Of a DNA stretch of 64,000 nt, positions 3,080-24,284 are shown piece after piece. Source of the stretch: Weissella muntiaci (GTDB lineage: Bacteria > Bacillota > Bacilli > Lactobacillales > Lactobacillaceae); contig NZ_SDGZ01000006.1 of the NCBI RefSeq assembly GCF_008107635.1, forward strand, positions 1-64,000, written 5' to 3'. Both the position numbers and the translations under genes were made by a program. The notes under the pieces were generated by a model. The model did not search any database. It had not been told where the DNA came from and saw nothing but the letters and a program-made list of their open reading frames with translations. Every line of letters begins with the position of its first letter. The stretch's first letter is position 1.

Positions 3080-3831
3080 ACGTCTCCATCCTCCATTAGA
3101 CTTGTTTTTAAATATTTCCTTGCATTATCAGCTAACCCATAAAAGTTTTTGCCGGCTATTAGGCGAAAATGACGCGGTGCAATCTCCGCCTTTATCGTCT
3201 TCAAATTGTCTATTAACCCCGTCAAATTTTGTCCATCGGTGACTGCATAAAGTGCGCTTTCATCACTTAAAATACCGTAGCCCCCTTGCGCATGCTCGAA
3301 TGATATAACCACTTCAAGCGTATCGTTAGATCGCAACTGTTGCGTCAAGTACCCTTGCATAATACCCCAATGTTCTCCAAATACCATTACCCCAGTATTC
3401 CCATCGGTGATCGTTGTAATCTGCAAATCGCTAAAGTGAATCCAATGATGTCGGATATTCAATAAATTAATCTGAAAATTACGACTTCCTCGTGGATAGA
3501 CAAAATTTCCTGACTGATCTAGATTCTTACGACCAATTTCCTGATCATCAGCATCGTAGAAAATTAACTGAACCTGTGTGCTCTCCTCACGATCAGCAAT
3601 TAAGTTGAGCGTTAAGTGATACGTTTCATTTGGCTTCAATATAGGCAATGTTGCATTAAAACGTCCAAATAATTGTTTTGGTTTCGAATACCACGAGCAA
3701 ATAATGGCTCCAGGTGATAGCATTTCATTCGAAAAGGTTACACTACCATCTTCCAGGAAATCAATTATCGAACCATCAACATTGACCGCCGCCAGATCAA
3801 CCGGCCAACGACTAATAAAAATGTTATTCAT
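3076..3831 (-). CDS. asp3: Accessory Sec system protein Asp3
   Basis: Asp3 is a small cytosolic beta-rich protein that forms a complex with Asp1 and Asp2 and helps target glycosylated adhesin to SecA2. This 251-aa product fits by position and by its beta-sandwich-like sequence, with NETYHLTLNLIADREESTQVQLIFYD resembling a carbohydrate-binding fold (cited in part: NETYHLTLNLI). I chose the ATG at 3829-3831, which overlaps the end of asp2 by 8 bp. A longer upstream reading would run far into asp2. The gene ends with an ATGA overlap to the second Gtf3 paralogue. Recognition of the family is partly from context. Confidence 0.82.
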   Translation of the reverse strand: MNNIFISRWPVDLAAVNVDGSIIDFLEDGSVTFSNEMLSPGAIICSWYSKPKQLFGRFNATLPILKPNETYHLTLNLIADREESTQVQLIFYDADDQEIGRKNLDQSGNFVYPRGSRNFQINLLNIRHHWIHFSDLQITTITDGNTGVMVFGEHWGIMQGYLTQQLRSNDTLEVVISFEHAQGGYGILSDESALYAVTDGQNLTGLIDNLKTIKAEIAPRHFRLIAGKNFYGLADNARKYLKTSLMEDGDV

Positions 3832-5410: not shown

Positions 5411-6905
5411 AAAGTAGCTTTCTCCATTCATTGCTCAATTGCGTAATACTGTTTGCCTCAATAATTGACACGCTTTCTACTAACGCTTGATTCCAATGAC
5501 TATCTTGCTCGAGATAATATTCGAATGCTTTAATTACGTCATCTCCAGCCTGAATTAACCTACCGTTACGACCATTGCTTAAGTACTGCGATTGATACGT
5601 GCTAATTAATGGCAAACCAGTGCTAGCCACCAACGCATGAACATAATTATTTGGTCGCCCCGTTAAATCAACATACAAGCGTGCCTGTTTGATGATTGCT
5701 AAACGCTCATTTTCTGGAAGCCCGAAATGCACTTTAATACGATTTTTAAGACTATTAGCCTCCCCAACCCGTTTAAGCAATTCTTTTGGCAAAAGCTCAA
5801 TCTCTAGATTCTCATTCATATCTTTAAAACTAATTCCGAAATTATCAACGATATATCTATCCGTTAGCCACTCAAAATGCTCAACATCTGCTAATACACC
5901 CACTTCAATTGACAGACTAACTGTGTCCTGCTTTAAACAATAATCAAAAGTACGCTTAACCAAATCATCATCGACTTGATCCATTTGCCAGAAAATATCC
6001 TGTTTAACAGTTGTATTGCTTGTACCAAAATTAATTTCCGTTGGAAATGTCGGAATCAAATGTGTTTTGCCACTCGCAAATTTAGCTAATTCTCGTTGAA
6101 CATGCCGACTTTCAACAACTACCTGACCCTGTGCCAATAAGTCCTTTTTCCGATCATCGCTCAAACTATTAAAAGTACTATCATTAAGCAAATATATTAT
6201 ATTGAGCTGCATATCAACTTGAGCTAACATTTCAACTAGCTCCACTTTACTTGCGTCAACAATTACTTGATCATTTCTTCTATCAAAATCAACAAGCGTA
6301 TGCCTTAAGAATTCATGATAAATGTCTGAAAAAGATTGATAGGTTTCTTGTTCAAATACCCCATTCAAATTATCATCAATATTAATTCCTTCAGACCGTA
6401 TATGCATCATGCGTCGCCCTTGATCAGAGTAAATATGGGCTTCAGTAAGATTCCCCTCCGCGTCCAAATAATCGGTGCGATAAATAAAGCCATGATCAGA
6501 ATAAAAGTCGACTTGCTTATGTCTTCCATTTAAGAAGAATTGAACCTCGCTAACATACCCATACTTGTTAAATTGGATTTTCCCATAGCTCTGACCATTT
6601 TTCATTAGCAAAATGCCACTATTACCATAGATTTTCTCAACATTATTGGCTAAATCCAATCCCGCCGCTGTCATTGGTAAGTCCATCGTTGTCTTAAATG
6701 CTCGTAAATAGTCGGCTATTTGAACGACATGATTTTCGTCAAAAAAACCATGTTCATTCCAGGCATATCTTAAAAAAGGAATGAATTTTGGAATGATTAT
6801 TTTATAGTCAATTTCACTTTGATCGAATGTATCAATCAAAGTGAAAATCCCATCCAAGTTTAAATCATTCGCCTCAGGCAGCCAATCGCCAATAAAATAA
6901 ATCAT
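5394..6905 (-). CDS. asp1: Accessory Sec system protein Asp1
   Basis: The 503-aa product begins MIYFIGDWLPEANDL, typical of Asp1, a GT-B-fold protein without transferase activity that binds adhesin glycans and assembles with Asp2 and Asp3. The C-terminal half contains GT-B-like text (RLAIIKQARLYVDLTGRPNN followed by ASTGLPLIST), where active glycosyltransferases bind a nucleotide sugar. Its start overlaps the secY2 stop by one base (TAATG), so it is coupled to the channel gene. Family members have about the same length. The role rests on similarity and on its place between secY2 and asp2. Confidence 0.88.
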   Translation of the reverse strand: MIYFIGDWLPEANDLNLDGIFTLIDTFDQSEIDYKIIIPKFIPFLRYAWNEHGFFDENHVVQIADYLRAFKTTMDLPMTAAGLDLANNVEKIYGNSGILLMKNGQSYGKIQFNKYGYVSEVQFFLNGRHKQVDFYSDHGFIYRTDYLDAEGNLTEAHIYSDQGRRMMHIRSEGINIDDNLNGVFEQETYQSFSDIYHEFLRHTLVDFDRRNDQVIVDASKVELVEMLAQVDMQLNIIYLLNDSTFNSLSDDRKKDLLAQGQVVVESRHVQRELAKFASGKTHLIPTFPTEINFGTSNTTVKQDIFWQMDQVDDDLVKRTFDYCLKQDTVSLSIEVGVLADVEHFEWLTDRYIVDNFGISFKDMNENLEIELLPKELLKRVGEANSLKNRIKVHFGLPENERLAIIKQARLYVDLTGRPNNYVHALVASTGLPLISTYQSQYLSNGRNGRLIQAGDDVIKAFEYYLEQDSHWNQALVESVSIIEANSITQLSNEWRKLLYEISK

Positions 6906-8128
6906 TACACGCCCCTCCGGCTCCCGAACAACTGATAGTTATCCTTATAATAAAGAAATTCTAAATCCTGTCGAACATTGTCAAAAATTGCAATTAAGAC
7001 AAACCACATTGCAAAATAAGTTGAGAAATTTGTATAGATTGATTTATGAGCCACATGACCAATTAAAAGAGGTACCACCGCAACAAATACCAAATATAAA
7101 CTGCCAACAGCCGCCCACAAGCTAACACGCTTAACGAGATAGTGTTTCGTAGTTCGTCCAGGTTTCACACCAATAATATAATCACCTTGTTCCTGCATAT
7201 CCTCCGCAATTTGAATAGGCATTAAATTGATAAATGAAAACAATACTCCCAGCGTATATAGCACAACGGCATACATAATTGTCCCTTGAAGGGTGACTAA
7301 ATTAAAAAATGCTTGGATATGCGCACTATTAATGTGCAATAGCTTAAGTAACTGCTCCGGCAAGGCCATTAACGTCGATGAGAACATCAACGGAAAGGTA
7401 CCAGCTATTAAAATTCGAAAGGCTAAATATGGTCGCATCGTTTGATTTGCTAAGATTGGTCGTTGGATTTTAATCCGGTATTCCGCCGTGTAAAGGCGTT
7501 CAGTAATAAAAATAAAGCTAACTGTCAAGATTAACAATATTATCATTCGACCACTGTGACCCTCGAGGGCTGGATAAATCTGCAATAGACTCTTAGTTAT
7601 ACTAGTTACAATTCCTGGCAAAATCATGACAAATGGTCCGCCTACACCAAATTCGACATTCATACTTGCCAGCCAAGCAATCAATAAAGCACCCGCGATC
7701 AAAAAGAGCATCGTTGTCGGAATTACTAATCCAGCAGAAACTGTTCCTTTGTCAAAAATCTGCTGATTGCCATAAAAAGAAATTGCCATAACAAATGCCT
7801 GTAGAAAGGCAAACAAAAAAATACCCCAAACCTGAATCTTCCCACGTAGCTCCCTGGAAATTCGCTTGGCCCACTCTCTATTGATCGCCGTAAATACAGA
7901 TAAAAAGATTGTTATAAACATATATGGCGCCAATCCGAGTGCGAACAAAGTCGGATTTGAAAATGTTCCACCAGTTGTTAAGGCCAACATATGCTCAATT
8001 GAACTATCTTGTGTTGCTTTCAAGACGATTTTAAAAAAAGGAAGTGGGATATTTTGCCCAATAATATATAACAACAGTAGCAATATCGTAGAACCGCTAC
8101 GCCTTAGTAAATCATCATGTTTTTTCAT
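6905..8128 (-). CDS. secY2: Accessory Sec channel SecY2
   Basis: This 407-aa, very hydrophobic protein has about ten predicted membrane segments. It shows SecY-family features such as the first-helix RRSGSTILLLLLYIIGQNIPLP segment (first part RRSGSTILLLLLYIIGQ) and a conserved EDMQEQGDYIIGVKPG loop ahead of the last helices. It is shorter than housekeeping SecY (about 430-440 aa), as is usual for SecY2. It forms the dedicated membrane pore for the glycosylated adhesin. The gene starts 19 bp after secA2 and overlaps asp1 by one base. Confidence 0.93.
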   Translation of the reverse strand: MKKHDDLLRRSGSTILLLLLYIIGQNIPLPFFKIVLKATQDSSIEHMLALTTGGTFSNPTLFALGLAPYMFITIFLSVFTAINREWAKRISRELRGKIQVWGIFLFAFLQAFVMAISFYGNQQIFDKGTVSAGLVIPTTMLFLIAGALLIAWLASMNVEFGVGGPFVMILPGIVTSITKSLLQIYPALEGHSGRMIILLILTVSFIFITERLYTAEYRIKIQRPILANQTMRPYLAFRILIAGTFPLMFSSTLMALPEQLLKLLHINSAHIQAFFNLVTLQGTIMYAVVLYTLGVLFSFINLMPIQIAEDMQEQGDYIIGVKPGRTTKHYLVKRVSLWAAVGSLYLVFVAVVPLLIGHVAHKSIYTNFSTYFAMWFVLIAIFDNVRQDLEFLYYKDNYQLFGSRRGV

Positions 8129-8147
8129 CTAGTTGTGTCTGCTTTCC

Positions 8148-10514
8148 TCACTTTGGAAATGCCAAATCAAATGAGCCATTAGCATTATCTTCAATCTTTG
8201 ACATTAGTAAATTTCTAAAAATATTAAATTGAATTTGGCGTTCCATTTCAAGGAAACTTCTCTGCGCTTCAATGCCATACTCATTGATTGGTTTATGTTG
8301 TGCAGTGGTTCGCCCATTAACTATCACTTGCAATTGTTGTAGATAGTCAAGTTGTAATACCCATGCATCATCAATTGCTTTTAAAATAATAATCTTTTTA
8401 AAGTATTGTGACTGTAATGGATGCGATAGGCGGCGCTGAACTGATGCTCTCGTTTCTTTAACCAATTGTACTAGCAAGGTCTGAACATCTTCTTTTTGAA
8501 TTTGTCCAATCAATGCTTGTTCAATTCTTGCTAGGGAGATCGTTTCATCAATGTTATTGAAAATAAAGCTACTAATTACTTCAATATTCAAATTCTGCTT
8601 CTGACTCACAAAATTATCGATAGTAACTTTTATTGCCAAGTCAATCAATCGTTCAACTTCATCTTGTTGATTATTCAGAACTTGCCTCCGAGCGAGATAC
8701 ACCTTGTCACGCTGCTCACCCAAAATAATTGCATAGGCGATTGTTGACCGTCGTTGCCGACTTTCCATATTTTTTCGTGTTTGCTGTGCCTTATCAATTA
8801 AGTGTCTACTTTGAAGAGACGTTAATGCTTGATCTCCCTCAACCGTGCCCGCTTCAACTTTAAGAAGCAACTTTTCATGATAATTTCTCGCCCGATTCGA
8901 GGCATTTTCTGTCATAATCTGATCTTCTAACGATACAAAAAATTGGCTTTCTCCAGGCTCGCCCTGTCGCCCTGCTCGTCCGCGTAACTGATTATCTACA
9001 CGGCGGTTTGCCATTCTCTCAGTTCCAATAACAACCAACCCGCCGTTCTTTTTTGCCATAGATGAGAGCTTAATATCAGTTCCGCGTCCCGCCATTGCCG
9101 TTGCAATGGTCACGGAACCAACCTGTCCAGCCTCATCGATAATTCTGTTTTCACGTTCCGCACTCTCCGCGTTAAGTAAATTGTGTGGAATTTTATGTTG
9201 TAAGAGTAATAAAGAATATAATCGCGACATGTTTACCGAACCCGTTGCAATTAAAATAGGCCGCCCTGCTTGTAACGCCGATTTTACCAACTTAATTGAT
9301 GCATCAACTTTCGCTCGATTCGTAACATACAGTTGATCAACTTGATCTTCCCTAATCAGTGGTTCATGAGTAGGAATCTGTATCACCCGCAACCGATATG
9401 TCTCCAGAAACTCTTTTTCATCAGTTTTTGCCGTACCAGTCATTCCGGCCAGTCTTTGAAATTTTTGGAATAAGCTCTGATAACTGATCACACCCAAGGT
9501 CTTAGTTTCTTTCGTCAGAGTAACATCTTCCTTGACCTCAATTGCTTGATGTAAACCGTTTGTCAGCTTAACACCCTTCAATTTACGTCCATTTGTGTCA
9601 TCTAACAAAATCACGGCATCATCCTCAACTAAGTAGTCATGCCCCTTTTCTTTCAAAACATTCGCCTGCAATGCCAAAATCAAATGAGTATACAACTCAA
9701 AATGGTCTGCTGAAAAAACATCGTCAATATCAAAATAGTTATTTATTTTCTCAAGTCCGAGATCAGAGTACCAAACACTCCGCTCATCATCACTTAATTC
9801 ATAATCTACCTCTGTTAAATTGTTAAAAAACCAATTACTAATCTCATAAAGATCCGATTGAACCTTTGGCGCGCCAGACACAATTAAGCTCGTCTGAGCC
9901 TCATCAAGGAGCACTGCATCGATTTCGTCAATTACCGCAAAATTAAATCTAGTTACAACTTGTTGGCCAATTTCTGTACCCAGATTATCAAAAAGGTAGT
10001 CAAAGCCTAATCTTGAGTGGGTTGCATAGACGATATCAGCGTCATAAAGCTTAGCCTTTTGTTGATAATCAAGTTCCTCAGTCCCAATTCCAACTGTTAA
10101 ACCAAGCCACTTAAAAACAGCCCCCATTTCCATTCCATCACGTCGCGCTAGATATTCATTTGCTGTGATTAAGAAATTTCCTTTTACCCCTAGCAACGCA
10201 TGGGCATATAAGGGCATCGTTGCAACAAGCGTCTTTCCTTCACCCGTTTTAATTTCGGCCACATTTCCAAAAAATAGAGCGACTCCCCCTAAGACTTGCA
10301 CATAATATGGCTCCATTCCTAACACTCTGCGATCGGCCTCAATTACAGCCGCAAAGATTGCTGGCAAAAGTTGTTTCAATGTTTTGCCGTTTTCTAATGC
10401 CACTTGGAAGATTTTTGTTTGAGATTGCAGCTCAGCATCTGACATTGCCTGATATTCAGGCAAGGCATTATAAACCTTCCTTGTTATTCTGCGGTATTTA
10501 CTTAATTCCAACAC
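8148..10514 (-). CDS. secA2: Accessory Sec ATPase SecA2
   Basis: The 788-aa protein is a SecA motor. It has Walker A (IKTGEGKTLVATMP near residue 90), the DEAD-like VIDEIDAVLLDEA box, the AGMTGTAKTDE motif and the helicase block ATAMAGRGTDIKLS with QLRGRAGRQGEPG. It lacks the long C-terminal linker and zinc-binding tail of housekeeping SecA1, which is normal for SecA2 of SecY2 systems. It drives adhesin export through SecY2 at the membrane. The start is a GTG at 10514 with a run of six G as SD about 7 nt upstream. It lies 16 bp after a small membrane-protein gene. Confidence 0.95.
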   Translation of the reverse strand: MLELSKYRRITRKVYNALPEYQAMSDAELQSQTKIFQVALENGKTLKQLLPAIFAAVIEADRRVLGMEPYYVQVLGGVALFFGNVAEIKTGEGKTLVATMPLYAHALLGVKGNFLITANEYLARRDGMEMGAVFKWLGLTVGIGTEELDYQQKAKLYDADIVYATHSRLGFDYLFDNLGTEIGQQVVTRFNFAVIDEIDAVLLDEAQTSLIVSGAPKVQSDLYEISNWFFNNLTEVDYELSDDERSVWYSDLGLEKINNYFDIDDVFSADHFELYTHLILALQANVLKEKGHDYLVEDDAVILLDDTNGRKLKGVKLTNGLHQAIEVKEDVTLTKETKTLGVISYQSLFQKFQRLAGMTGTAKTDEKEFLETYRLRVIQIPTHEPLIREDQVDQLYVTNRAKVDASIKLVKSALQAGRPILIATGSVNMSRLYSLLLLQHKIPHNLLNAESAERENRIIDEAGQVGSVTIATAMAGRGTDIKLSSMAKKNGGLVVIGTERMANRRVDNQLRGRAGRQGEPGESQFFVSLEDQIMTENASNRARNYHEKLLLKVEAGTVEGDQALTSLQSRHLIDKAQQTRKNMESRQRRSTIAYAIILGEQRDKVYLARRQVLNNQQDEVERLIDLAIKVTIDNFVSQKQNLNIEVISSFIFNNIDETISLARIEQALIGQIQKEDVQTLLVQLVKETRASVQRRLSHPLQSQYFKKIIILKAIDDAWVLQLDYLQQLQVIVNGRTTAQHKPINEYGIEAQRSFLEMERQIQFNIFRNLLMSKIEDNANGSFDLAFPK

Positions 10515-14414: not shown

Positions 14415-15773
14415 TTAGGATTTAACAGGCTTCCGATAACTAAAGAATGCCAATAAACAAATCACCAAGGCAAAAATCGATAAATACCATGGGTTTGATG
14501 TTATTTGCGAATAAACAACGAAGATCAAGAATAATAACACAATTACTGTAATACTCTTCAAGAATATGTTAGCTACCCCACCATGCTTGAAATACAAGAT
14601 TAATGCCGAAACCAGCAATACAATCCAAACCGTTGAAATAGTGTAAGAGATCGATCCAGCAACGAATTGCCAGAATCCATCTCCAAAGATTGCTGAAAGC
14701 ACAACTCCTAAGAATAAGACCGCTGAACTGACCCAAATTGTCCGCGTGGGAACTTGGTTACGATTTAGCTTACTTAGACCACGTCCCAACTTAGTTTCCG
14801 AACCTTGTACTCGTGCGTAGAGTGACCTTGATGTCGCATAGATTGCCGAGTTAACCGCTGAGAAAATCGCAATCACAATCACAATTAGAATTAATTTATC
14901 CGCATGCGGAATTCCCACACGTGTGAATAGTGTCGCAAAAGGACTCTCGGCATTTGGATCAGCAACTTGCTTCCAAGGCAATAATTGCAAAAATAGAAAA
15001 ATTGGCACAACGTAGAATGCAATAATTCTGAAGAGCACACTTCGAATTGCCTTAGGGATTGCCGTCTTTGCATCCTTAGTTTCTGCAACCGTAACTGCCG
15101 CAAGTTCAGAACCACCAAAGGAGAAGATTACCACCAACATTGAATTGATGACTCCTTGCATGCCATTTGGTGCAAAACTCGATGCAGTACTATTGTTAGC
15201 GGCCAGCTGAGCAGCAGTTGGCTTAAATCCCAAGTGCACATTATTAATGAACAATAGATAGAGTCCAACCGCAATTAGAATAATGATCACAGCAATTTTA
15301 ATAAATGCTAACCAATACTCGGTTTCAGCGAATGCACGAACCGAGTATAAATTAATCGCCGTTCCTAAAACTGCCACGATCAAAGCAAAGATCCATAATG
15401 GCACGCCTGGAATTAACATTCCTAGGAACGTTGCCACACCAGCCTCTTCAGCAATTAAGACCGCCATCCATGTCGACCAATAAACCCAATCCGTAAAGTG
15501 CGCCATCCGCGCCCCAATGTAAGGCTTAACAATCGCCGACATCCCGACATCCGATGATTTCTTATTAAACAGAATCATCTTTGCAACGCCGTTCATCACA
15601 ATATATAGAGAAAAGCCAGCCAAGACGTAAGCCAGGATTGCTGCTGGTCCGGCAGTCGCAATGACTGAACCAGATCCCAAAAATAATCCTGAACCAATTG
15701 CTCCCCCAAGTGAGAGCATAACGACATGGCGAGTTTGTAGCACTGGCTTCAACTCATCATTTCTTTCTTCCAC
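14415..15773 (-). CDS. Amino-acid permease (APC superfamily, AAT type)
   Basis: The protein (about 452 aa) has twelve predicted membrane segments. It carries the first-helix APC signature GGAIGSGLFLGSG and the conserved loop AVTVAETKDAKTAIPKAI after helix 6 typical of AAT-family permeases. It imports one or more amino acids with protons; specificity is not readable. The longest reading would use a GTG at 15785 with an SD touching it. I prefer GTG at 15773, since AAGGGTGG lies about 8 nt upstream. The gene is monocistronic. Confidence 0.85.
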   Translation of the reverse strand: MEERNDELKPVLQTRHVVMLSLGGAIGSGLFLGSGSVIATAGPAAILAYVLAGFSLYIVMNGVAKMILFNKKSSDVGMSAIVKPYIGARMAHFTDWVYWSTWMAVLIAEEAGVATFLGMLIPGVPLWIFALIVAVLGTAINLYSVRAFAETEYWLAFIKIAVIIILIAVGLYLLFINNVHLGFKPTAAQLAANNSTASSFAPNGMQGVINSMLVVIFSFGGSELAAVTVAETKDAKTAIPKAIRSVLFRIIAFYVVPIFLFLQLLPWKQVADPNAESPFATLFTRVGIPHADKLILIVIVIAIFSAVNSAIYATSRSLYARVQGSETKLGRGLSKLNRNQVPTRTIWVSSAVLFLGVVLSAIFGDGFWQFVAGSISYTISTVWIVLLVSALILYFKHGGVANIFLKSITVIVLLFLIFVVYSQITSNPWYLSIFALVICLLAFFSYRKPVKS

Positions 15774-16010
15774 AGGTAATACCACCCTTATATTTGTTCT
15801 TCTTATTCTTGATCGCTCACTTGGTACTTGCTCTGTAACCCTGCTTGGAGTCGATACACGATTAATTACAACAAGATACCTTAAATAAAAAGACTTTCTC
15901 TAATTTAGCACAAGATGACCGGTTTGTCATTTTATTTTAATAATCTTTTCATAAAACGGTTTTAAGTTGTTTTCCATAGTAGCTAGCGCATTAAAATTTC
16001 TAAATATAAC

Positions 16011-16038
16011 AAAAAGGCGTTGACGGAACACCAACACC
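16011..16038 (-). terminator. Terminator of the acyl-CoA operon
   Basis: GGTGTTG (16032-16038 on minus) pairs with CAACGCC (16016-16022), including one G-U pair. A TTTTT run follows. It lies 17 bp past the last gene of the operon. Confidence 0.8.
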
Positions 16039-16054
16039 CTTTCTAAACACAATT

Positions 16055-16717
16055 CTACTGTTGCAAACTTTCTAACAAACGCGCTCGATCAACAATCATT
16101 CGCGTGTGTGTCCCATGCCCAATTTCTCGATTGCCCTCCCGAGCCACCACATCAAAAGTTATCCTGCGACCATAGACTTTAGTGATAGTCGCTGTTGCGG
16201 TTATTCTGGCGCCTTTAAGCGCACCAGCCGTATGAAAAACATGCACCTCTGTTCCAACTTGCGACTCTTCAACACTTAGTGCAGATGCGATACAGTCAGT
16301 AGCCGTATTCTCCAATAATCCAATTAAAAATGGGGTTGCAAATACTGGCATTAAATCGCCCTTTACTGCTCCCGTCATATTAGTATCATCAACAATTAAT
16401 GACTCCGAAAAACGCTTGCCAATAAATAGCGGTGATTCAATCATGCCACCTTGAATCGTCAAGATTGCCGCCATCACATGCTTACACATTAGTGGCGCCC
16501 CTTCATCACATGTACAGTAAAACTGTTTAACATCTCTACCGTCACCTTTGATTCTAATCACTCCGCTCTCACCATCACCAACAAATATATAACTATTTGG
16601 GTTGCCTAACGGAATGATTTTTAAGGCGCCAACCTCAAACAATGCAATGCCGGCCGAAAAGTTTTCCGCATTCATAGTCCGACTTTCCATCGTCGCACGA
16701 TTTATTTGTACTTTCAT
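16055..16717 (-). CDS. SWIM zinc-finger / FlK-type acyl-CoA thioesterase fusion
   Basis: Two domains can be read in this 220-aa protein. Residues about 1-90 contain a SWIM-type zinc finger, C68-x-C70-x7-C78-x-H80 (CTCDEGAPLMCKH). Residues about 105-220 form a hot-dog thioesterase of the FlK (fluoroacetyl-CoA thioesterase) group. There T128, E136 and H162 have exactly the spacing of FlK's Thr42, Glu50 and His76, followed by the IGHGTHTRMIVD end strand. The gene is last in the acyl-CoA operon, 3 bp after a CoA-transferase gene, so it probably hydrolyses a pathway acyl-CoA. The SWIM part usually binds nucleic acid or protein, and its use here is unknown. The fusion is unusual to my knowledge. 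Confidence 0.8.
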   Translation of the reverse strand: MKVQINRATMESRTMNAENFSAGIALFEVGALKIIPLGNPNSYIFVGDGESGVIRIKGDGRDVKQFYCTCDEGAPLMCKHVMAAILTIQGGMIESPLFIGKRFSESLIVDDTNMTGAVKGDLMPVFATPFLIGLLENTATDCIASALSVEESQVGTEVHVFHTAGALKGARITATATITKVYGRRITFDVVAREGNREIGHGTHTRMIVDRARLLESLQQ

Positions 16718-16720
16718 ACT

Positions 16721-18043
16721 TCACCAAATCTTTTCATTATTAGCTGCTACCCGTAATTTCTCACGGAAATCTGGATGTGCGATTGCAATCAGTGCCTCTG
16801 CCCGTTCACGAACATTAAGTCCACGTAACCACGCGATACCATATTCTGTTACAACATAATCAGTATCATTACGCGACGTTGATACAACAGCGCCTTGAGC
16901 CAAAAAAGGAACGATCTTGGAGTGCAGTTGACCAGACTCATCTTTATAAGTCGAATGACAAGCAATAATTGATTTACCACCCTTTGACATCTGTGCACCA
17001 CGTACTGTTTCGGACTGTCCGCCGGTCCCAGACCATTGGACACTGCCAAGTGTCTCCGAAGCACATTGCCCAGTCAAATCAACCTCAAGTGTTGCATTAA
17101 TTGAAACAAATTTATTATTCTGACCAATCGTATAAGGATCATTCGCATATGTACAGCTCTTAAATAATACCGAAGGATTATTATCGATATAATCATACAC
17201 ACGCTGACTCCCCAACGTAAATGAAGCAATCGAGAAATTATTGTTCAACCCTTTTACCGTATTATCAACCGCACCACATTCAATCAGATCAATCATCGTC
17301 TCAGTAAACATTTCAGTATGAATTCCTAAATGTTTCTTATTGCGCAATTCGAACGCAACTGCGTTTGGAATATTACCAATCCCTAACTGCAATGTTGAAC
17401 CATCTTCTACTAAAGTCGCAATTTGGCGACCAATTTCTGCATCAATCTCCGTGTAGGGGGCCAATTGAATATAAGGAATTGGCCGGTTTGATTCGATTAA
17501 TGCTGCCACTTCTGAAATATGCACATTCGTGTCGCCAAAGGTTCGTGGATAATTCGGATTGACTTCAACAATCACAAGTGCCCCGGCATCAATCAAATCA
17601 CGCTCGTAAACGGTACTAACGGACAATGAAAGATATCCGTTCTTGTCCATTGGCGCAACTGTTGAAAACAAGACCGGCCGGCGATGTTCAGTCGTAATTC
17701 GATCCAATGTCTTGCTCAATGCTGTTGTTGAATTCTGCGGAATAGCGCTTGATAATTGATTTTTTTGTGATTCACGTACTGCTCCCGTGAAAAACCAACT
17801 ATTGTGCTCCATTACACCCCGCATTGTTTCATCATGTAACCACAAATAGTCCTTTGTTGGCAAACACGTATTCAAGGTCACACCCTTTACACCCGTTGTT
17901 TTTAAATACTGCAGATGATCCAGCAAAGCAGTGGGTTCGCCAGCCGATTGGCCAGAAAAAATATAATCATGACTTTGAATTAAATCCAACGCACCTTCAA
18001 CGTTTTTCAATTTGCTTTGATATATTGCATCAAAATTTTTCAT
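16721..18043 (-). CDS. Acyl-CoA:carboxylate CoA-transferase, Cat1/AbfT (acetyl-CoA hydrolase) family
   Basis: The 440-aa product matches 4-hydroxybutyrate or butyryl-CoA:acetate CoA-transferases. It has the GIGNIPNAV loop, the catalytic glutamate motif LGIHTEMF (Glu244 with this start) that forms the glutamyl-CoA thioester, and the C-terminal WSGTGGQ CoA-binding motif with VTEYGIAWLRG. It would move CoA between a short-chain acyl-CoA and acetate or another acid. The ATG at 18043 is 7 nt from a GAGG SD; the adjacent ATG at 18046 is only 4 nt away. It follows the permease by a few bases and precedes the thioesterase fusion by 3 bp. Acetyl-CoA hydrolase activity is an alternative. Confidence 0.88.
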   Translation of the reverse strand: MKNFDAIYQSKLKNVEGALDLIQSHDYIFSGQSAGEPTALLDHLQYLKTTGVKGVTLNTCLPTKDYLWLHDETMRGVMEHNSWFFTGAVRESQKNQLSSAIPQNSTTALSKTLDRITTEHRRPVLFSTVAPMDKNGYLSLSVSTVYERDLIDAGALVIVEVNPNYPRTFGDTNVHISEVAALIESNRPIPYIQLAPYTEIDAEIGRQIATLVEDGSTLQLGIGNIPNAVAFELRNKKHLGIHTEMFTETMIDLIECGAVDNTVKGLNNNFSIASFTLGSQRVYDYIDNNPSVLFKSCTYANDPYTIGQNNKFVSINATLEVDLTGQCASETLGSVQWSGTGGQSETVRGAQMSKGGKSIIACHSTYKDESGQLHSKIVPFLAQGAVVSTSRNDTDYVVTEYGIAWLRGLNVRERAEALIAIAHPDFREKLRVAANNEKIW

Positions 18044-18052
18044 CATTCAGCC

Positions 18053-19423
18053 TCATAAACTCGCAAATAAAATAATAATAATTAGCCCAATCAAGTTACC
18101 GACGGCAACTGTTGTAACAGCGTATTTGTAAGAATTCTTTTGCTTCAATTTCGATAAAGCCAAAAAAGTAATGAACGCACCTGATTGTGGTACCAATGTT
18201 GCAAAGCCGGATGCAACAGCCGCTACACGATGAATTATCTGTGGTTGAATTCCAGCTGCGAGATAATGCTGTGCAAAGTTTGGCATGACAATCCCTAACG
18301 CTCCAGATGATGATCCCGTAATCGCAGTAATCACCGAGGTTAAAGCTGTTAACGAGATCAGTGAACCGCCGGGCATATGGAAGATCGCTTTTTGAATTAC
18401 TTCAAACCCTGGTGCACCAACAACCACAGCACCAAAAGCCACCGCTGAAGCTGTGGCAATAATTGGTGCAAATGCACTGGTTGTTCCAAGCGTTAATGTT
18501 GTTTTAGGTTGTGAAATAAACTTACGGAATAAGATTACCGATAACAATATAGCCAAAATAAGTGCAACATAGATAACGTTTTTCTTAACCAATTCATTTC
18601 CAAGAACTGAACCGCTAATTGCAATAATAATCAACAACAGTAGTGGTGAAATTGATGCGCCAAAACTTGGTAACTCACGATTAGTTTCATCCACATCGTT
18701 GATATCCGCGTAGGTCGCAAAGTTTTCACCCTTTTTCAAACTCTTATTCAAAGCATATCGCATATAAAACAAGCCAAAAATCGTTGTGGCAACTGCGGCG
18801 ACTAAACTTGGCAGAGCGTCAGCCGTGAGCGAAGTTCCCAAAGTTGTCATTGGAATAACATTTTGGATTGCCGGAGTTCCAGGTAGCATGACCATTGTAA
18901 TTGTTGCTAATCCAAGCCATAAAGGAATTGTAACCAACGTCCATGCAATATCTAACTTTTTGAATAAGGCTCGCGCCAAAGGAATGATCGCAAACATTGC
19001 CACAAAGAGTGAAATTCCACCATAGGTTAACAACGTTGTAATTACAAATACGGCAACCAGCACTCGGTAAGGACTATCCGAACCAAATTTTTTTAGAATA
19101 AAGTTAGCAATTGACACAGTCGCACCAGATGCTTCCATGAATTTCGCCAAAATCGCACCAAATAAAAAGATTGCAAAATACGAGATAATATAATCTCCTA
19201 GTGCTGGCATGAAAGCATGCGGATTGTACAAAAAGGTACCCACTTTGGCTGGGTTTGCAACTGGTTCACTTCCTAGTAATGTTTTAATAACATCCATGTT
19301 ATTAAGTAATACTACGAGCAAAGATGCAATCAAGGCTGCAATCGTAATATGTACCTCTTTAACAACCAATAAAATAATCGTGCAAATACCAATCAGAATT
19401 CCGATTGTTCCTAAAAGACCCAT
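18053..19423 (-). CDS. GntP-family organic-acid permease
   Basis: The 456-aa protein has about twelve to fourteen membrane segments. GntP-like text includes a TYGGISLFVAMFAIIPLARALF helix pair (quoted in part: TYGGISLFVAMFAI), MLPGTPAIQNVIP and GSSSGALGIVMP. The family moves gluconate, serine or 3-hydroxybutyrate-type acids with protons; Bacillus YxjC sits next to CoA-transferase genes. Here it lies between two CoA-transferase genes. Uptake of a hydroxy- or enoic acid, or exchange for the saturated product, is therefore the natural inference. The start codon ATG at 19423 has a GGAGAAGGAAA SD. An intrinsic terminator-like hairpin precedes it. Confidence 0.85.
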   Translation of the reverse strand: MGLLGTIGILIGICTIILLVVKEVHITIAALIASLLVVLLNNMDVIKTLLGSEPVANPAKVGTFLYNPHAFMPALGDYIISYFAIFLFGAILAKFMEASGATVSIANFILKKFGSDSPYRVLVAVFVITTLLTYGGISLFVAMFAIIPLARALFKKLDIAWTLVTIPLWLGLATITMVMLPGTPAIQNVIPMTTLGTSLTADALPSLVAAVATTIFGLFYMRYALNKSLKKGENFATYADINDVDETNRELPSFGASISPLLLLIIIAISGSVLGNELVKKNVIYVALILAILLSVILFRKFISQPKTTLTLGTTSAFAPIIATASAVAFGAVVVGAPGFEVIQKAIFHMPGGSLISLTALTSVITAITGSSSGALGIVMPNFAQHYLAAGIQPQIIHRVAAVASGFATLVPQSGAFITFLALSKLKQKNSYKYAVTTVAVGNLIGLIIIILFASL

Positions 19424-19441
19424 TTTCCTTCTCCTCGAAAT

Positions 19442-19467
19442 AAAAAGGAAGGAGACACGCTCCTTCC
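19442..19467 (-). terminator. Intra-operon hairpin with T-run (attenuating terminator)
   Basis: On the minus strand GGAAGGAG (19460-19467) and CTCCTTCC (19447-19454) form an 8-bp GC-rich stem with a 5-nt loop, followed by TTTTTA. It lies between the propionate-CoA-transferase-type gene and the permease. It would lower expression of the last three genes or stabilise the upstream mRNA. Confidence 0.75.
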
Positions 19468-19480
19468 TTCCAGCAGTGCC

Positions 19481-21037
19481 TTATTGCAGACCCATCTTCT
19501 CATCCCTAAAGATTTTTGAATCCATTTTATTAAGCACATCTTTCTGTATGATCGGCTCGAAAGCCATTTGATCCAAAACATCTTTTTGTAAGTCCACTCC
19601 GGGCGCAATTTCAAGTAATTGAACCCCATTTTCAACTAACTTAAAGACTGCGCGTTCTGTAACATAATAAACATTTTGTTTGTTGTGTCGGGCTGTTGCG
19701 GCTGAGAATGTAATTTGCTCCACATTCCGGACAAATTTCTTAGCTCGTCCTTCATTATCAATTTGCAATTCTCCATTGGCATTAATTGAAGTCTTTAGCC
19801 CACCGGCAGTCAATGTACCTGTAAAGATTACAGTATGGGTATTTTGGCTAATATTCACAAAGCCACCTGTTCCTGCAATTTTAGGTCCAAATTTAGAAAC
19901 GTTCACATTTCCGGATTGATCAAATTCAGCAAGTCCCAAATAGGCAACATCAATTCCGCCACCATCATAAAAATCAAACATTAAGTTCTGATCAATGATG
20001 GCTTCTGGTGAAATTGCAGAGCCAAAATCAAAGCCACCCTGTGGAGCACCACCAAAAGTTCCTGGTTCCAAAACAGCGGTGAAATTATCACCTAAGCCTT
20101 CCTCTTTGAAGACAGCGGCTACATATTCTGGAACACCAATCCCATAGTTTACGACGCGAGTTCCTTCAGGAACAAGCATCGCTCCACGGCGACCGATGAT
20201 CTTTTTTTGATCAAGCTTTAATGGTGCCGCATCGTCATTAACCACCAAACCTGCTGTTACAAATTCACTTTTATATTGAGATGCTAAAGTCTGTTTGTGT
20301 TTAGTAACATCAGCAACTTCAACAACGTAGTCAACCAAAATTCCTGGAACTTTGATTGACTTTGGATCAAGCGAGCCACTTTTCACAACGTGCTTAACTT
20401 GGACAATTACAATCCCACCATTATTATGTGCAGCTGTCGCAATTGACGTTGTTTCCAATGTAAGTGACTCCTCATCCATAGAAATATTGCCGTCTTCATC
20501 GGCATAAGTTCCTCGCAGAATTGCAACATTGGGACGTGGGAAATGGTACATCAGATAATCTTCATTATCTAATTGAATTTTATCTACCAATGCTGGGGTA
20601 ATTTCATTCAAACGACCACCTGCTTGTTCTGGATCAACAAAAGTTCCTAAGCCCGTCTTCGAAATCAAGAAATTCTTACCCGCAGCCAACTCGCGGAATG
20701 CCTGTGAAATCACACCCTGAGGAAAGTTATAGGCCTGTAGCTCATTTGCAGCAACAAGTGGCTGGAGCTTAGGAGCTAACCCCCAATGTCCACCAATTAC
20801 CATCTTCGACATACCCTTGTAAGCCAATCGATTCATTCCCAGATCACCTGAATCACCAATCCCGGCAGAATAAATCGTGGTCAAAGCATTTGGAACCCCG
20901 ACTTCCATAAAAGCGGTTTCCATCTCTTCTAAGATTTCTTCAGCAACAACATTTCCCATAAAGCCTTCAAGGCCAATGACCGCACCGTTAGGAATCAATT
21001 TTACAGCCTCTTTAGCTGTTATAAATTTAACTGTCAT
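19481..21037 (-). CDS. Propionate CoA-transferase-type enzyme (fused alpha/beta)
   Basis: This 518-aa protein fuses the two halves of a family I CoA-transferase. It starts with FITAKEAVKLIPNGAVIGLEGF, has the glycine-rich TYADEDGNISMDEESLTLE region, and ends its active-site loop in AVLEPGTFGGAP. The catalytic Glu324 has the same number as in Clostridium propionicum Pct. These enzymes load CoA from acetyl- or butyryl-CoA onto 2- or 3-hydroxy acids and short fatty acids. An AAGGAG SD overlaps the fabV stop 9 bp away. A second, unrelated CoA-transferase in the operon suggests one enzyme for loading and one for release. Confidence 0.9.
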   Translation of the reverse strand: MTVKFITAKEAVKLIPNGAVIGLEGFMGNVVAEEILEEMETAFMEVGVPNALTTIYSAGIGDSGDLGMNRLAYKGMSKMVIGGHWGLAPKLQPLVAANELQAYNFPQGVISQAFRELAAGKNFLISKTGLGTFVDPEQAGGRLNEITPALVDKIQLDNEDYLMYHFPRPNVAILRGTYADEDGNISMDEESLTLETTSIATAAHNNGGIVIVQVKHVVKSGSLDPKSIKVPGILVDYVVEVADVTKHKQTLASQYKSEFVTAGLVVNDDAAPLKLDQKKIIGRRGAMLVPEGTRVVNYGIGVPEYVAAVFKEEGLGDNFTAVLEPGTFGGAPQGGFDFGSAISPEAIIDQNLMFDFYDGGGIDVAYLGLAEFDQSGNVNVSKFGPKIAGTGGFVNISQNTHTVIFTGTLTAGGLKTSINANGELQIDNEGRAKKFVRNVEQITFSAATARHNKQNVYYVTERAVFKLVENGVQLLEIAPGVDLQKDVLDQMAFEPIIQKDVLNKMDSKIFRDEKMGLQ

Positions 21038-21046
21038 TTTCGCTCC

Positions 21047-22228
21047 TTAAGGCTTCAAAGTTAGCAAGTCGTCAAATTCAAACTCATCAATAGTATTTCC
21101 CTCAACTTCAAAACCATTTAAGTTCAGGAACTCTGTTCTGAACAAATCGTAAGCCGCAATGTCTGTCTTAAAGTTTTCTGCAGTAATCTCGTTAAAGAGT
21201 GCTTCAACCTTAGCTTGTAATGCTGGTTCAAGTTCAAAACTATCTGGGCGCATCCGTCCCTTCTCGTCATAGTTTGCTTGGTCACCATACAACATCGTCC
21301 GGTATGTCCGATCGATATGCATTATTGGTGTCTCGTGGTTTTCTTCAAGCTTATAAAGCGCAATTAGATATTTCGGTAAAATTGGAATAACCACAGATGC
21401 TTTTGTGGTTACGGCACGCGCAACAATAATGGTTGCCTTACCAGCAATGTCTTGAATATTTTCATTGATTCGAACCGCTGATTCTTCTGTTTGGTCCTTA
21501 GCACGTCCTAAGGCGCCACCATGATAGAAAGCATGGGTCATTTTAGGACCAATATAACTGTAAAGGACTGTCTTGAAGTTATCAGCAAGGACGCCGGCCT
21601 CTTTAAGTAAGTTGACCCACCATTCCCAGTCTTCGCCACCCATGACTTTGACAGTTCCTTCAACTTCCTCAGGTGTAGCGGCATGTACAGTTTGTTCAAA
21701 AATCTCTTCCGTCTCAAGATTGATATTCTCACCTGTCACATCTTGTCCAATTGGGTTAAGCGAACTAAACCATTTCTTACCCATTGGATCGACACGAACT
21801 CCAGAAGCCAAACTATAAACAAGTAGGTCAATCTTGCCACCAAACTCTTTTTGGATATATGCAATTACTTGTTGCTTCATGGCTAAGCTAAAGGCATCGC
21901 CAACGAAATTCTTTGCAATCAAGCCGGCCTCTTCTGCAAACTCGCGGAAGAAAATATTATTATACCAACCGGCCGTACCAATATTGGTCTCTGTTTTTGG
22001 TCCGCGTTCAAAACTTACAGCAATTGTGTCAGCCCCAGCACCAAAAGCAGATGAGATCCGAGAAGATAGACCGTAAGATGATGACCCACCAATAATTAGA
22101 ACCTTCTTAGGACCTTCATAAGACCCCTGAGCTTTAACATAATCAATTTCGTTCAGAACTTCTTGGCGAATACCGTAGGGGTTAACTGAACGGGCAACGT
22201 TGCCTTTCATTTGTAATGATGCTTTCAT
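21047..22228 (-). CDS. fabV: FabV/Ter-type trans-2-enoyl-CoA (ACP) reductase
   Basis: The 393-aa protein is a FabV/Ter reductase over its full length. It has the N-terminal NPYGI block, the Rossmann loop GGSSSYGLSSRISSAFGAG and Glu74 after the second strand (VSFERGP), which favours NADH. GWYN follows, and the active site is Tyr235-x8-Lys244 (YHGGALGRAK), identical in spacing and numbering to Yersinia FabV. It reduces crotonyl-CoA-like 2-enoyl thioesters irreversibly with NADH. It lies between a hydratase and a CoA-transferase gene rather than with fatty-acid synthesis genes. This argues for a fermentative Ter role rather than FabI replacement. Confidence 0.95.
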   Translation of the reverse strand: MKASLQMKGNVARSVNPYGIRQEVLNEIDYVKAQGSYEGPKKVLIIGGSSSYGLSSRISSAFGAGADTIAVSFERGPKTETNIGTAGWYNNIFFREFAEEAGLIAKNFVGDAFSLAMKQQVIAYIQKEFGGKIDLLVYSLASGVRVDPMGKKWFSSLNPIGQDVTGENINLETEEIFEQTVHAATPEEVEGTVKVMGGEDWEWWVNLLKEAGVLADNFKTVLYSYIGPKMTHAFYHGGALGRAKDQTEESAVRINENIQDIAGKATIIVARAVTTKASVVIPILPKYLIALYKLEENHETPIMHIDRTYRTMLYGDQANYDEKGRMRPDSFELEPALQAKVEALFNEITAENFKTDIAAYDLFRTEFLNLNGFEVEGNTIDEFEFDDLLTLKP

Positions 22229-22272
22229 TTTATCTCTTCCTTATGCTCTCTGAATGACAGTATCCTGAGTTG

Positions 22273-22707
22273 TTATCCCTCTGGTGGAATAACTGTGGCA
22301 GTACCAGTTGTAACAATTTCACCATCTTGGTTTGTTACAACAGTATCAAAAGTGGCAATTGTAAAATGCTTTTTTGGTGTCAATTCAGACAATGTCACTT
22401 TAGCAGTGATCACATCTCCAAAGTGAATTGGCTTTTGAAATTTTAAATCCTGACCCAGATAGATTGTCCCCGGTCCTGGTAAATGCATTCCCAACACTGC
22501 AGAGATTAAACCAGCCCCTAACATTCCATGCGCTATCCGCGTTTTAAAGGGCGTTGTTTCTGCATATGCTTCATCGGTATGCGCTGGATTGTGATCACCA
22601 GTTACTTCCGCAAAACCTTGAACATCCGCTTCGCTAACCTGCTTTGAAATCTCCTTAGACATTCCGATAACCAATTCAGAAGTCTTAACATTTGTGTAAT
22701 CGCTCAT
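22273..22707 (-). CDS. MaoC/PhaJ-type (R)-specific enoyl-CoA hydratase
   Basis: The 144-aa single hot-dog protein carries the hydratase 2 motif FAEVTGDHNPAHTDEAYA. Asp38 and His43 have the same 5-residue spacing as Asp31/His36 of Aeromonas PhaJ, followed by AHGMLGAGLIS. It interconverts (R)-3-hydroxyacyl-CoA and trans-2-enoyl-CoA. It is the first gene of the operon, 44 bp upstream of fabV, so its enoyl-CoA product is the direct substrate of the reductase. The single-domain short form usually prefers C4-C6 substrates, though chain length cannot be read here. Confidence 0.92.
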   Translation of the reverse strand: MSDYTNVKTSELVIGMSKEISKQVSEADVQGFAEVTGDHNPAHTDEAYAETTPFKTRIAHGMLGAGLISAVLGMHLPGPGTIYLGQDLKFQKPIHFGDVITAKVTLSELTPKKHFTIATFDTVVTNQDGEIVTTGTATVIPPEG

Positions 22708-22746
22708 TATGAAGTTCCTTTCTCATGCTACTTATAACACAAGTTT

Positions 22747-22775
22747 AGGATAGCGCTTACATTGACAAAAATCAA
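22747..22775 (-). promoter_or_regulatory. Promoter of the acyl-CoA operon with cre and FNR-like sites
   Basis: On the minus strand TTGATT (22770-22775) and TATCCT (22747-22752) are 17 bp apart. TGTAAGCGCTATCC (22748-22761) matches the cre consensus TGWAANCGNTNWCA at 13 of 14 positions and covers the -10 box and most of the spacer, so CcpA would repress. TTGACAAAAATCAA (22762-22775, plus strand) differs from the FNR box TTGATN4ATCAA at one base and covers the -35. Catabolite repression is well supported; redox control is speculative. Confidence 0.65.
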
Positions 22776-22921
22776 TATTACATTTAATAGCCATTCTTAT
22801 ATTGGAATGCCTAATTTTAAGCGATATGGTTTTCATTTACAGATAAATAATATTCCACATATATTTTCAAGGAATTCGAAAAAGATTTCATCTAAAAAGG
22901 CAATAACTTTACTAGACAATT

Positions 22922-22965
22922 AAAAAGCGTTGATATACAGTTTCCACTGTACATCAACGCTTTTT
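22922..22965 (-). terminator. Strong terminator of obg
   Basis: A 20-bp stem with one mismatch (AAAAAGCGTTGATATACAGT with its partner at 22946-22965) and a 4-nt loop ends in a T-run on both strands. It lies just past the obg stop. Confidence 0.92.
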
Positions 22966-22973
22966 AATTTTAA

Positions 22974-24284
22974 TTAGGCCTCATACTCAAACGCAAAATC
23001 AAGCAATCGAACCGTATCACCGGCTTCAGCACCAGCTTCAGCCAAGGCACGGTCGACACCCATAAAGCGCATTTGACGAGCAAAACGCATCAATGATTCT
23101 GTATAACCGACATTTGTTCGCTTGAACAAACGCTCAATCTCATCCCCAGACAAGATCCAAGTACCATCTTCATCTTGTGAAAGTTCAAATGGTGCCGCGT
23201 CAGCTGTAAACTCATACAAGGCACTGTCAGAATCAGCCTCTTCCATTCCCTTAGGAATGAATTGTGGTGTCTCATCAAGCAAAGTTGCAGTTCGTTGCAA
23301 GAGTGGTTCCAATCCATCACGCGTCAATGAAGAGATTGGCATAATCTCAATATCATCATCAATTTCTGGATCAGCTGCTAACTTGGCCTTAAATTCGGCT
23401 AACGTCTCTGCTGCATCTGGCATATCCATCTTGGTTGGTACGATAATTTGTGGCCGTTCCAACAACATTGGATCATATTCAGCTAATTCTTGATTGATTG
23501 CAAGATAATTTTCATATGGGTCTGACTCTGGATCAACCCCTGACATATCAAGCATATGCAAGATTACACGAGTTCGTTCAACGTGACGTAGGAATTGGAT
23601 TCCCAATCCTACACCTTCTGAAGCTCCTTCAATCAACCCTGGTAAATCAGCCATAACAAAATCACGTCCATCATCCAAACGCACCATCCCCAAATTGGGA
23701 ACAAGGGTTGTAAAGTGATATGCCGCAATCTTAGGCTTAGCCGCCGTAACAACTGATAACAAGGTTGACTTACCAACTGACGGGAATCCAACCAACCCAA
23801 CATCTGCCAAAACCTTCAGCTCAAGTTGAATTTCACGTTCCTCACCAGGCTCACCGTTTTCAGCAATTTCTGGTGCTGGGTTCTTTGATGATGCGAAACG
23901 GATGTTTCCGCGACCACCACGACCACCAGCTGCTACGACCAAGCGATCACCCTGCTCAATCAAATCGCCAATTACCTGACCAGTCTCCGCATCAGTTACC
24001 GTAGTTCCTTGTGGTACGCGGATTACCAAATCATCTGATGACCGCCCTGTCATGGCCTTAGTTGCTCCATTTCCACCAGCAGTGGCCTTAAAATGGCTCT
24101 TATAGCGGAAATCCATCAGGGTGCGCAAACCCTCATCTACTGTCAAAACGATTGAACCGCCACGGCCGCCATCGCCACCGAAAGGTCCTCCCATATTGAT
24201 ATACTTTTCATGTCGGAAGGAAACGGCTCCATCGCCACCCTTACCAGCTTTTACATTAATTTTAACTTGGTCGACAAACGCCAT
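22974..24284 (-). CDS. obg: Obg/CgtA GTPase
   Basis: The 436-aa protein shows the three Obg domains. They are a glycine-rich N-terminal fold ([22 protein letters not shown] in part), a G domain with [21 protein letters not shown] and the PTKMD base motif, and a C-terminal OCT domain. It is an essential ribosome-associated GTPase in 50S assembly and stress control. The ATG at 24284 (MAFVDQ) has SD GAGG 8 nt upstream and matches family starts. An upstream GTG at 24299 is unlikely. Confidence 0.97.

Follow-up and report, generated by a model that had tools for sequence, protein, structure and literature searches.

What could a lactic acid bacterium do with a compact set of acyl-CoA genes that comes with its own permease, two CoA-transferases and an NADH-dependent enoyl-CoA reductase? 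Such a set occupies positions 16055-22775 of the window analysed here, a 64,000-nucleotide stretch of Weissella muntiaci contig NZ_SDGZ01000006.1, where six minus-strand open reading frames (ORFs) encode, in order, a hydratase, a FabV/Ter reductase, a CoA-transferase, a GntP permease, a second CoA-transferase of the Cat/AbfT type and an FlK-type thioesterase (genes 1 to 6). A first-pass annotation had claimed this order, which was borne out by the ORF list and the Pfam domains, and had proposed that the set uses an external 3-hydroxy acid or 2-enoate as a sink for NADH. The answer towards which we lean, with some caution, is that the operon, which was probably acquired horizontally, encodes the reductive half of a 3-hydroxybutyrate fermentation and serves a heterofermenter as an external electron sink. 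The GntP permease would import (R)-3-hydroxybutyrate, a FadX/YdiF-like transferase would load CoA onto it, drawing on butyryl-CoA as soon as the cycle is under way, the MaoC hydratase would dehydrate 3-hydroxybutyryl-CoA to crotonyl-CoA, and FabV/Ter would reduce crotonyl-CoA with NADH to butyryl-CoA. Passing the CoA to the next 3-hydroxybutyrate, or via the Cat-type transferase to acetate, would free butyrate; the Cat-type enzyme perhaps provides an acetate/acetyl-CoA exchange that primes the loop, and the thioesterase would clear stalled acyl-CoA. On balance, 3-hydroxybutyrate and NADH would yield butyrate and NAD+, and acetyl-phosphate could then go to acetate and ATP, not ethanol. We infer the substrate, the direction, the transferase partners and the physiological role from the gene content and context described below.

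All six proteins scored above the curated Pfam cut-offs for their named domains, with only the SWIM part of gene 6 falling below its own, and six ORFs of such lengths and E-values are not due to chance. The gaps between consecutive genes, from 1 to 6, are 44, 9, 57, 6 and 3 bp. Gene 1 (22273-22707; PF01575, 4.7e-21) is predicted to encode an (R)-specific enoyl-CoA hydratase/3-hydroxyacyl-CoA dehydratase of the MaoC/PhaJ type: its best solved relatives, 5cpg and 1iq6, are both (R)-specific enoyl-CoA hydratases, and D38 and H43 align with the Asp and His of both, which together with the MaoC domain is the combination taken to mark PhaJ. Gene 2 (21047-22228; PF12241, 5.8e-87) combines the PF12241, PF12242 and PF07055 domains with the Y-x8-K motif (Y235/K244) and Asp111 of NADH-dependent trans-2-enoyl-CoA reductases (Ter/FabV), and its best solved relative is CA_C0462 (4eue). 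The residues Y52, E74, D111, Y225, Y235 and K244 were read directly, the roles of the Y-x8-K motif and Asp111 being assigned from PMC3198815, which also describes reduction of crotonyl-CoA with NADH by a bona fide FabV at a kcat of about 1335 per min. Gene 2 exceeded the cut-off of the NCBIfam subfamily model NF010177 (460 versus 403 bits) and just missed that of the FabV equivalog NF043048 (397.2 versus 400), scores that do not decide between a preference for short enoyl-CoA and one for enoyl-ACP. Gene 3 (19481-21037; PF01144, 9.1e-22), a family I CoA-transferase similar to YdiF, FadX and Pct, matched YdiF 2ahu at 1.6e-130 with its catalytic E324 opposite a YdiF glutamate; because it reached 430.3 bits on the FadX equivalog NF052271, under the cut-off of 750, we call it only FadX/YdiF-like. 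The active-site residues named in the first-pass annotation for these three genes (D38/H43, Y235/K244, E74 and E324) were thus all found in the translations.

Gene 4 (18053-19423; PF02447, 9.9e-13), the putative 3-hydroxybutyrate carrier, scored 48 bits against a Pfam GntP cut-off of 22.5 but 43.1 against the 292.75 bits of the gluconate symporter model TIGR00791 and was therefore assigned to the GntP superfamily by Pfam only; we infer that it imports 3-hydroxybutyrate. Gene 5 (16721-18046; PF13336, AcetylCoA_hyd_C, 1.4e-61) is closest among solved proteins to the 4-hydroxybutyrate CoA-transferase AbfT (3gk7, 1e-91) and scored 309.2 bits on the butyryl-CoA:acetate CoA-transferase model TIGR03948 (cut-off 674.8). 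Its predicted catalytic glutamate is present, although it is E245 when counted from the ATG used here and the previously given E244 only if translation begins at the second Met. Of 398 genomes surveyed in the class, 150 gave a match to gene 5, the closest reaching 40-44% identity, and plasmid matches were all below 60% identity; no clear donor for Cat is apparent.

The case for 3-hydroxybutyrate as the substrate comes from gene context. A scan of named genomes with a FadX alignment returned 366 relatives, of which the best 80, some from one genome, form the basis of the following counts. Within 6 kb of FadX, we found the hydratase (hyd) in 35 of these 80, FabV in 20, both in 17, GntP in 37, a thiolase (thl) in 34, a short-chain dehydrogenase/reductase (SDR) in 33, FlK in one and Cat in none; the GntP neighbours were distant (about 28-36% identity) in all but one. 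The exception with the close permease, locus L067 of a Streptococcaceae metagenome-assembled genome (MAG), carries in one direction thl-AtoD-AtoA-3HBDH-GntP-hyd-FabV-FadX-FlK-LysR (3HBDH, 3-hydroxybutyrate dehydrogenase), with identities to the window of 57% for GntP, 75% for the hydratase, 78% for FabV, 66% for FadX and 42% for FlK. In Vagococcus fluvialis (L068; L054 has identical rows and was counted as the same locus) and in L052 and L053 from the same genus, thl-AtoD-AtoA-3HBDH-GntP and hyd-FabV-FadX form divergent neighbouring operons without FlK. The SDRs of L052, L053, L067 and L068 exceeded two curated 3-hydroxybutyrate dehydrogenase cut-offs at all four loci; those of L085 and L194, the other two loci for which SDRs were classified, gave FabG-like scores below most cut-offs. 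In the GntP tree, the window permease fell into a six-row clade with L067 and Vagococcus (support 100/100), in which the five other rows represent the same four loci, so that it groups with permeases adjoining 3HBDH. In these relatives, one gene group may represent an oxidative branch, from 3-hydroxybutyrate via acetoacetate to acetyl-CoA, and the other a reductive branch leading from 3-hydroxybutyrate to butyrate, a pair that would balance a 3-hydroxybutyrate fermentation; of these, the window would have kept the reductive branch together with the permease. The sink idea thereby gains contextual support, with a 3HBDH over the cut-off beside both the closest GntP relatives and the hyd-FabV-FadX set.

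The rest of the W. muntiaci genome (2.29 Mb in 35 contigs, 96.5% complete) is consistent with this role. It contains a phosphoketolase (XFP) and no phosphofructokinase over the cut-off, which fits an obligate heterofermenter; XFP also matched in the control Lactococcus lactis and is by itself weak evidence. An external origin of the acceptor is favoured by failure to find genes that would make the substrate internally: the genome gave no hit to crotonase (PF00378), PF01144 matched only the operon gene in a search for an AtoDA-type transferase (a model on which the L052 proteins AtoD and AtoA reach 212 and 134 bits, so that such genes would hardly be missed), and the SDRs, at 26-32% identity to 3HBDH, included no close 3-hydroxybutyrate dehydrogenase. 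Among the genes of a both-branch 3-hydroxybutyrate fermentation (3HBDH, AtoDA and thiolase), only one thiolase was found in the genome. The earlier statement that no thiolase is present accordingly holds for the operon and not for the genome; the related one, that this is not the classical butyrate pathway, was upheld, with thiolase, Hbd, crotonase and Bcd-EtfAB all absent from the operon and no crotonase hit genome-wide (acyl-CoA dehydrogenase/EtfAB were looked for in the operon, no genome-wide search being made). The genome also has a FabK-type gene (434.9 bits, just below the cut-off of 453.1) that stands among apparent fatty-acid-synthesis genes, as judged from the ORFs with only the FabK-type protein scanned; we take the neighbours to be accA, accD, accC, fabZ, fabF, fabG and fabD. 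FabV is therefore probably not needed there and would be free for another task.

The history of the cluster points to lateral acquisition. Trees were built from tblastn best hits only, other rows being dropped (minimum 300 aa and 40% for FabV, 330 aa and 25% for GntP, 450 aa and 40% for FadX). The window FabV is sister to that of L067 (100/100), and the pair joins Vagococcus (99/97), separate from 19 rows belonging to the window's own family; L047, also of that family, sits among named Companilactobacillus. Because of this placement, transfer of FabV between the Weissella and Streptococcaceae/Vagococcus lineages is likely. A FadX tree made by a quick method without bootstrap also groups the window with L067 (93), and the gene cluster was probably acquired horizontally. 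The GC content of the operon (41.4%) lies between those of its two flanks (39.3% and 42.6%), so that composition carries no signal of transfer, and a plasmid search with the operon returned eight records with weak pieces covering at most 15% of it. Across 28 genomes of the genus (own included, 1.3-2.4 Mb), there was no other FadX-type match above 48% identity, except short fragments in G401, as expected for an accessory trait, and, of 395 genomes examined from the order, 73 carry PF12241, with none of the four other members of the genus in that set among them. A second FadX-like CoA-transferase of W. muntiaci, 45% identical to gene 3, is encoded on contig C5 (G000:C5:86208-87635; L169 8173-9678). 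Five other genomes of the genus have matches with identities of about 47-48%, which in one of them are fragments only; the second transferase is possibly the EC 2.8.3.8 gene noted for Weissella cibaria in the accessible part of PMC7125115.

Several points weigh against the sink reading. It is drawn from gene content, and the trees bear on descent, not function. In the relatives, the same genes might just as well lead from acetyl-CoA to butyrate. Members of the GntP family in general transport several acids, and the accessible portions of the literature on GntP and hydroxybutyrate hold no experimental proof of transport. Lactobacillaceae relatives pair the hyd/FabV/FadX core with an MIP-type channel and crotonase, not with GntP and 3HBDH. 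Incompleteness of the genome limits calls of absence, and the PF01144 search has a blind spot, having missed the paralogue on contig C5 that a protein query found. Finally, the single thiolase, on another contig, and an Hbd-family gene at 38831-39715 could give some internal supply.

The Lactobacillaceae clusters (L047, L048, L069-L071, L073-L079, L081 and L083) comprise hyd, crotonase, an MIP-type channel, FabV, FadX and LysR and may form a module for the reduction of hydroxy acids or enoates. Five Lactobacillus loci among the best 80 of the 366 relatives have hyd and FadX with no FabV match. In the one inspected, L080, a FabK/nitronate-monooxygenase-type gene (8315-9253; 342.9 bits, below the cut-off of 453.1) lies between hyd and the FadX-like gene, and a gene of the same type (L193 6556-7494) adjoins the FadX-like transferase of another Lactobacillus locus; the exchange of FabV for a FabK-type gene looks like a non-orthologous replacement. 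The other transporter and the crotonase mean that substrates may differ in these clusters, and the same reductive machinery might in W. muntiaci, too, act on a different acid: a 2-enoate such as crotonate, 3-hydroxypropionate (yielding propionate) or a 3-hydroxy acid of C5-C8. The families of CoA-transferases and MaoC hydratases present here have a broad substrate range, and the channel-and-crotonase clusters lacking GntP suggest substrate variation around one core. We nevertheless regard another substrate as rather unlikely, given the grouping of the window permease with those adjoining 3HBDH and the lack of a crotonase hit in the genome itself.

De novo formation of butyrate from acetyl-CoA, in which the chromosomal thiolase and the Hbd-family 3-hydroxyacyl-CoA dehydrogenase encoded outside the operon (38831-39715, plus strand; NF006143, 380.2 bits against a cut-off of 312) would feed the six genes, appears quite improbable, even though both genes are present and a thiolase stands beside the same core in L067, Neobacillus L085 and Brevibacillus L091. 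Hbd-family enzymes yield (S)-3-hydroxyacyl-CoA, which does not suit the operon hydratase because the latter is of the (R)-type, making the Hbd-family gene a possible but stereochemically mismatched partner; the crotonase, close 3HBDH and AtoDA searches were negative, both genes lie away from the operon, and the thiolase might instead act in mevalonate synthesis. A complete internal butyrate pathway was rejected on the lack of a crotonase hit and on stereochemistry.

There is a small chance that a 3-hydroxybutyrate operon was transferred and has since decayed or fallen silent, leaving the cluster as its remnant. None of the other genomes in the 28-genome set of the genus has a comparably close FadX, and no LysR gene adjoins the operon, unlike in L067 and the vagococci, but none of the six frames is interrupted, the catalytic residues are those expected, and Cat is tightly spaced within the set although unseen near FadX in the best 80 relatives. 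Slimmer still is the prospect that FabV supplies fatty-acid synthesis with an additional enoyl-ACP reductase while its neighbours handle exogenous fatty acids: the matching NCBIfam models are named FabV, and among the 20 neighbourhoods fetched for the 73 PF12241 genomes (L065 being a fragment match with no tblastn hit), 14 of the 19 full-length ones have no hydratase and FadX matches (five, L047, L048 and L052-L054, have both), but this FabV lies between a hydratase and a CoA-transferase and groups with FabV genes in that setting, and a main fatty-acid reductase role was rejected in view of the FabK-type gene.

Transcription of the proposed sink operon may be more complex than first thought. 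Its neighbours are an amino-acid permease gene on one side and obgE on the other. A single promoter had been assumed for all six genes; a consensus scan detected no minus-strand sigma-70-type site at 22707-23000, and a terminator-like hairpin (19446-19468, minus strand), a perfect 9-bp stem followed by a U-rich tail, lies between genes 3 and 4, so that the set may form two transcripts, hyd-FabV-FadX and GntP-Cat-FlK. The stability of this hairpin is not out of the ordinary (22 of 200 shuffles were as stable; z -1.15), and it is absent from the terminator-scan list. Downstream of gene 6, an intrinsic-terminator-like hairpin (16011-16043, minus strand) has 15 pairs followed by a T run. Upstream of gene 1, a cre-like (22748-22761) and an FNR-like sequence (22762-22775), both on the minus strand, each differ at one position from what we take to be the consensus patterns; the numbers of such matches in the window were reached by 29 of 100 and 9 of 100 shuffles, respectively, and are not clearly above shuffles. 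An Rfam scan of 15700-23000 gave no match, and a tRNA search of the window found none. Elsewhere in the window (3824-10514), SecA-like and SecY-like ORFs are accompanied by ORFs that resemble an accessory Sec cluster, judging from the ORFs alone.

Gene 6 (16055-16717, minus strand; PF22636, 6.3e-28) was described as an FlK-like thioesterase, and its FlK-type hotdog domain (aa 113-211; 97.4 bits, cut-off 27) bears out this assignment, with what we take to be the FlK Thr/Glu/His triad (T128/E136/H162) invariant in 10 aligned sequences. What had been missed is an in-frame N-terminal extension of ~90 residues (~aa 1-90; window 16433-16717) of putative SWIM zinc finger type, which has a C68-x-C70-x7-C78-x-H80 motif, the CxCx7CxH pattern of SWIM, and scores 15.8 bits (E 0.01) on PF04434, below the cut-off of 19.6. 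When 398 genomes of the phylum were searched with the N-terminal part alone, four besides the W. muntiaci genome gave weak matches, each within an ORF of 628-1095 aa; the one inspected has SWIM plus SNF2_assoc, and the extension is weakly similar to the N-terminal part of SNF2-type helicases. No full-length match to gene 6 was found elsewhere in the 395 genomes searched for the order (the most extensive one covered residues 60-217 at 23% identity with two stops) or on plasmids (best 65% covered), and the L067 FlK has no such extension. The SWIM-FlK fusion looks new within these order, phylum and plasmid searches; that SWIM acts in regulation or binds metal is no more than a guess. Fluoroacetate resistance was rejected as a function of gene 6, Leu122 standing opposite the FlK lid Phe (presumably Phe36) in the alignment.

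Taken as a whole, the first-pass annotation was right about the gene set and residues, needs correction in the Cat numbering and the architecture of gene 6, and assumed a single promoter that the scan did not confirm; its physiological reading appears sound and is now partly supported by gene context for 3-hydroxybutyrate. A broader proposal, which we advance tentatively, is that a lactic acid bacterium has acquired only the reductive half of 3-hydroxybutyrate dismutation as an ATP-free closed CoA cycle, so that a ketone body or storage-polyester monomer would act as external electron acceptor of heterolactic fermentation; SWIM may regulate acyl-CoA release, and the FabV/FabK-type modules of other lactobacilli might apply the same principle to other hydroxy acids. 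External electron acceptors set the ATP yield and acetate output of heterofermenters, the familiar ones being fructose, citrate, oxygen, hydroxycinnamates and aldehydes. If the proposal is true, 3-hydroxy acids would be a new type of acceptor, butyrate would arise in a lactic acid bacterium without Bcd-Etf, and cross-feeding on 3-hydroxybutyrate could occur in guts and fermentations; the sink idea is testable because type strains of named Lactobacillaceae carry related clusters.

Among the papers listed in the literature searches (open-licence texts by titles and abstract starts, subscription journals being mostly outside), none described lactic acid bacteria using 3-hydroxybutyrate or crotonyl-CoA as a sink. 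Butyrate itself has been tied to lactic acid bacteria: the accessible parts of the respective papers assign it to type II fatty-acid synthesis (FASII) plus thioesterase in Lactiplantibacillus plantarum (PMC5698307) and report trace butyrate, no butyryl-CoA dehydrogenase gene and a proposed FASII origin for W. cibaria 92 (PMC7125115). A 2025 review of short-chain acids in Lactobacillus (PMC12603697) nowhere uses the terms crotonyl, enoyl-CoA or 3-hydroxybutyr-, and its available text describes butyrate genes engineered into Lactobacillus. Among gene clusters, those of Companilactobacillus, Paucilactobacillus, Lactiplantibacillus, Furfurilactobacillus and Lentilactobacillus share the hyd/FabV/FadX core at 45-63% identity but have the MIP channel, crotonase and LysR, with FabV and FadX in separate clades. 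The Cetobacterium somerae plasmid p2 cluster (L194) resembles the window in having GntP beside a FadX-like transferase and a MaoC dehydratase, but has no FabV, in whose place it carries a FabG-like reductase, a thiolase and acyl-CoA dehydrogenase-Etf. The V. fluvialis and Streptococcaceae MAG loci share the hyd-FabV-FadX order and the GntP clade; in contrast to them, the window locus has no thl, AtoDA, 3HBDH or LysR, has an additional Cat, and bears the SWIM-type extension on an FlK otherwise present in the MAG only. In Ilyobacter-type fermentation, 3-hydroxybutyrate is converted to acetate and butyrate, and the proposed pathway resembles it in CoA transfer onto 3-hydroxybutyrate, dehydration, reduction and butyrate release. 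It would differ in that the W. muntiaci genome gave no hits for the oxidative branch (3HBDH, AtoDA), that NADH-dependent FabV/Ter replaces acyl-CoA dehydrogenase/Etf, and that sugar fermentation would supply the electrons.

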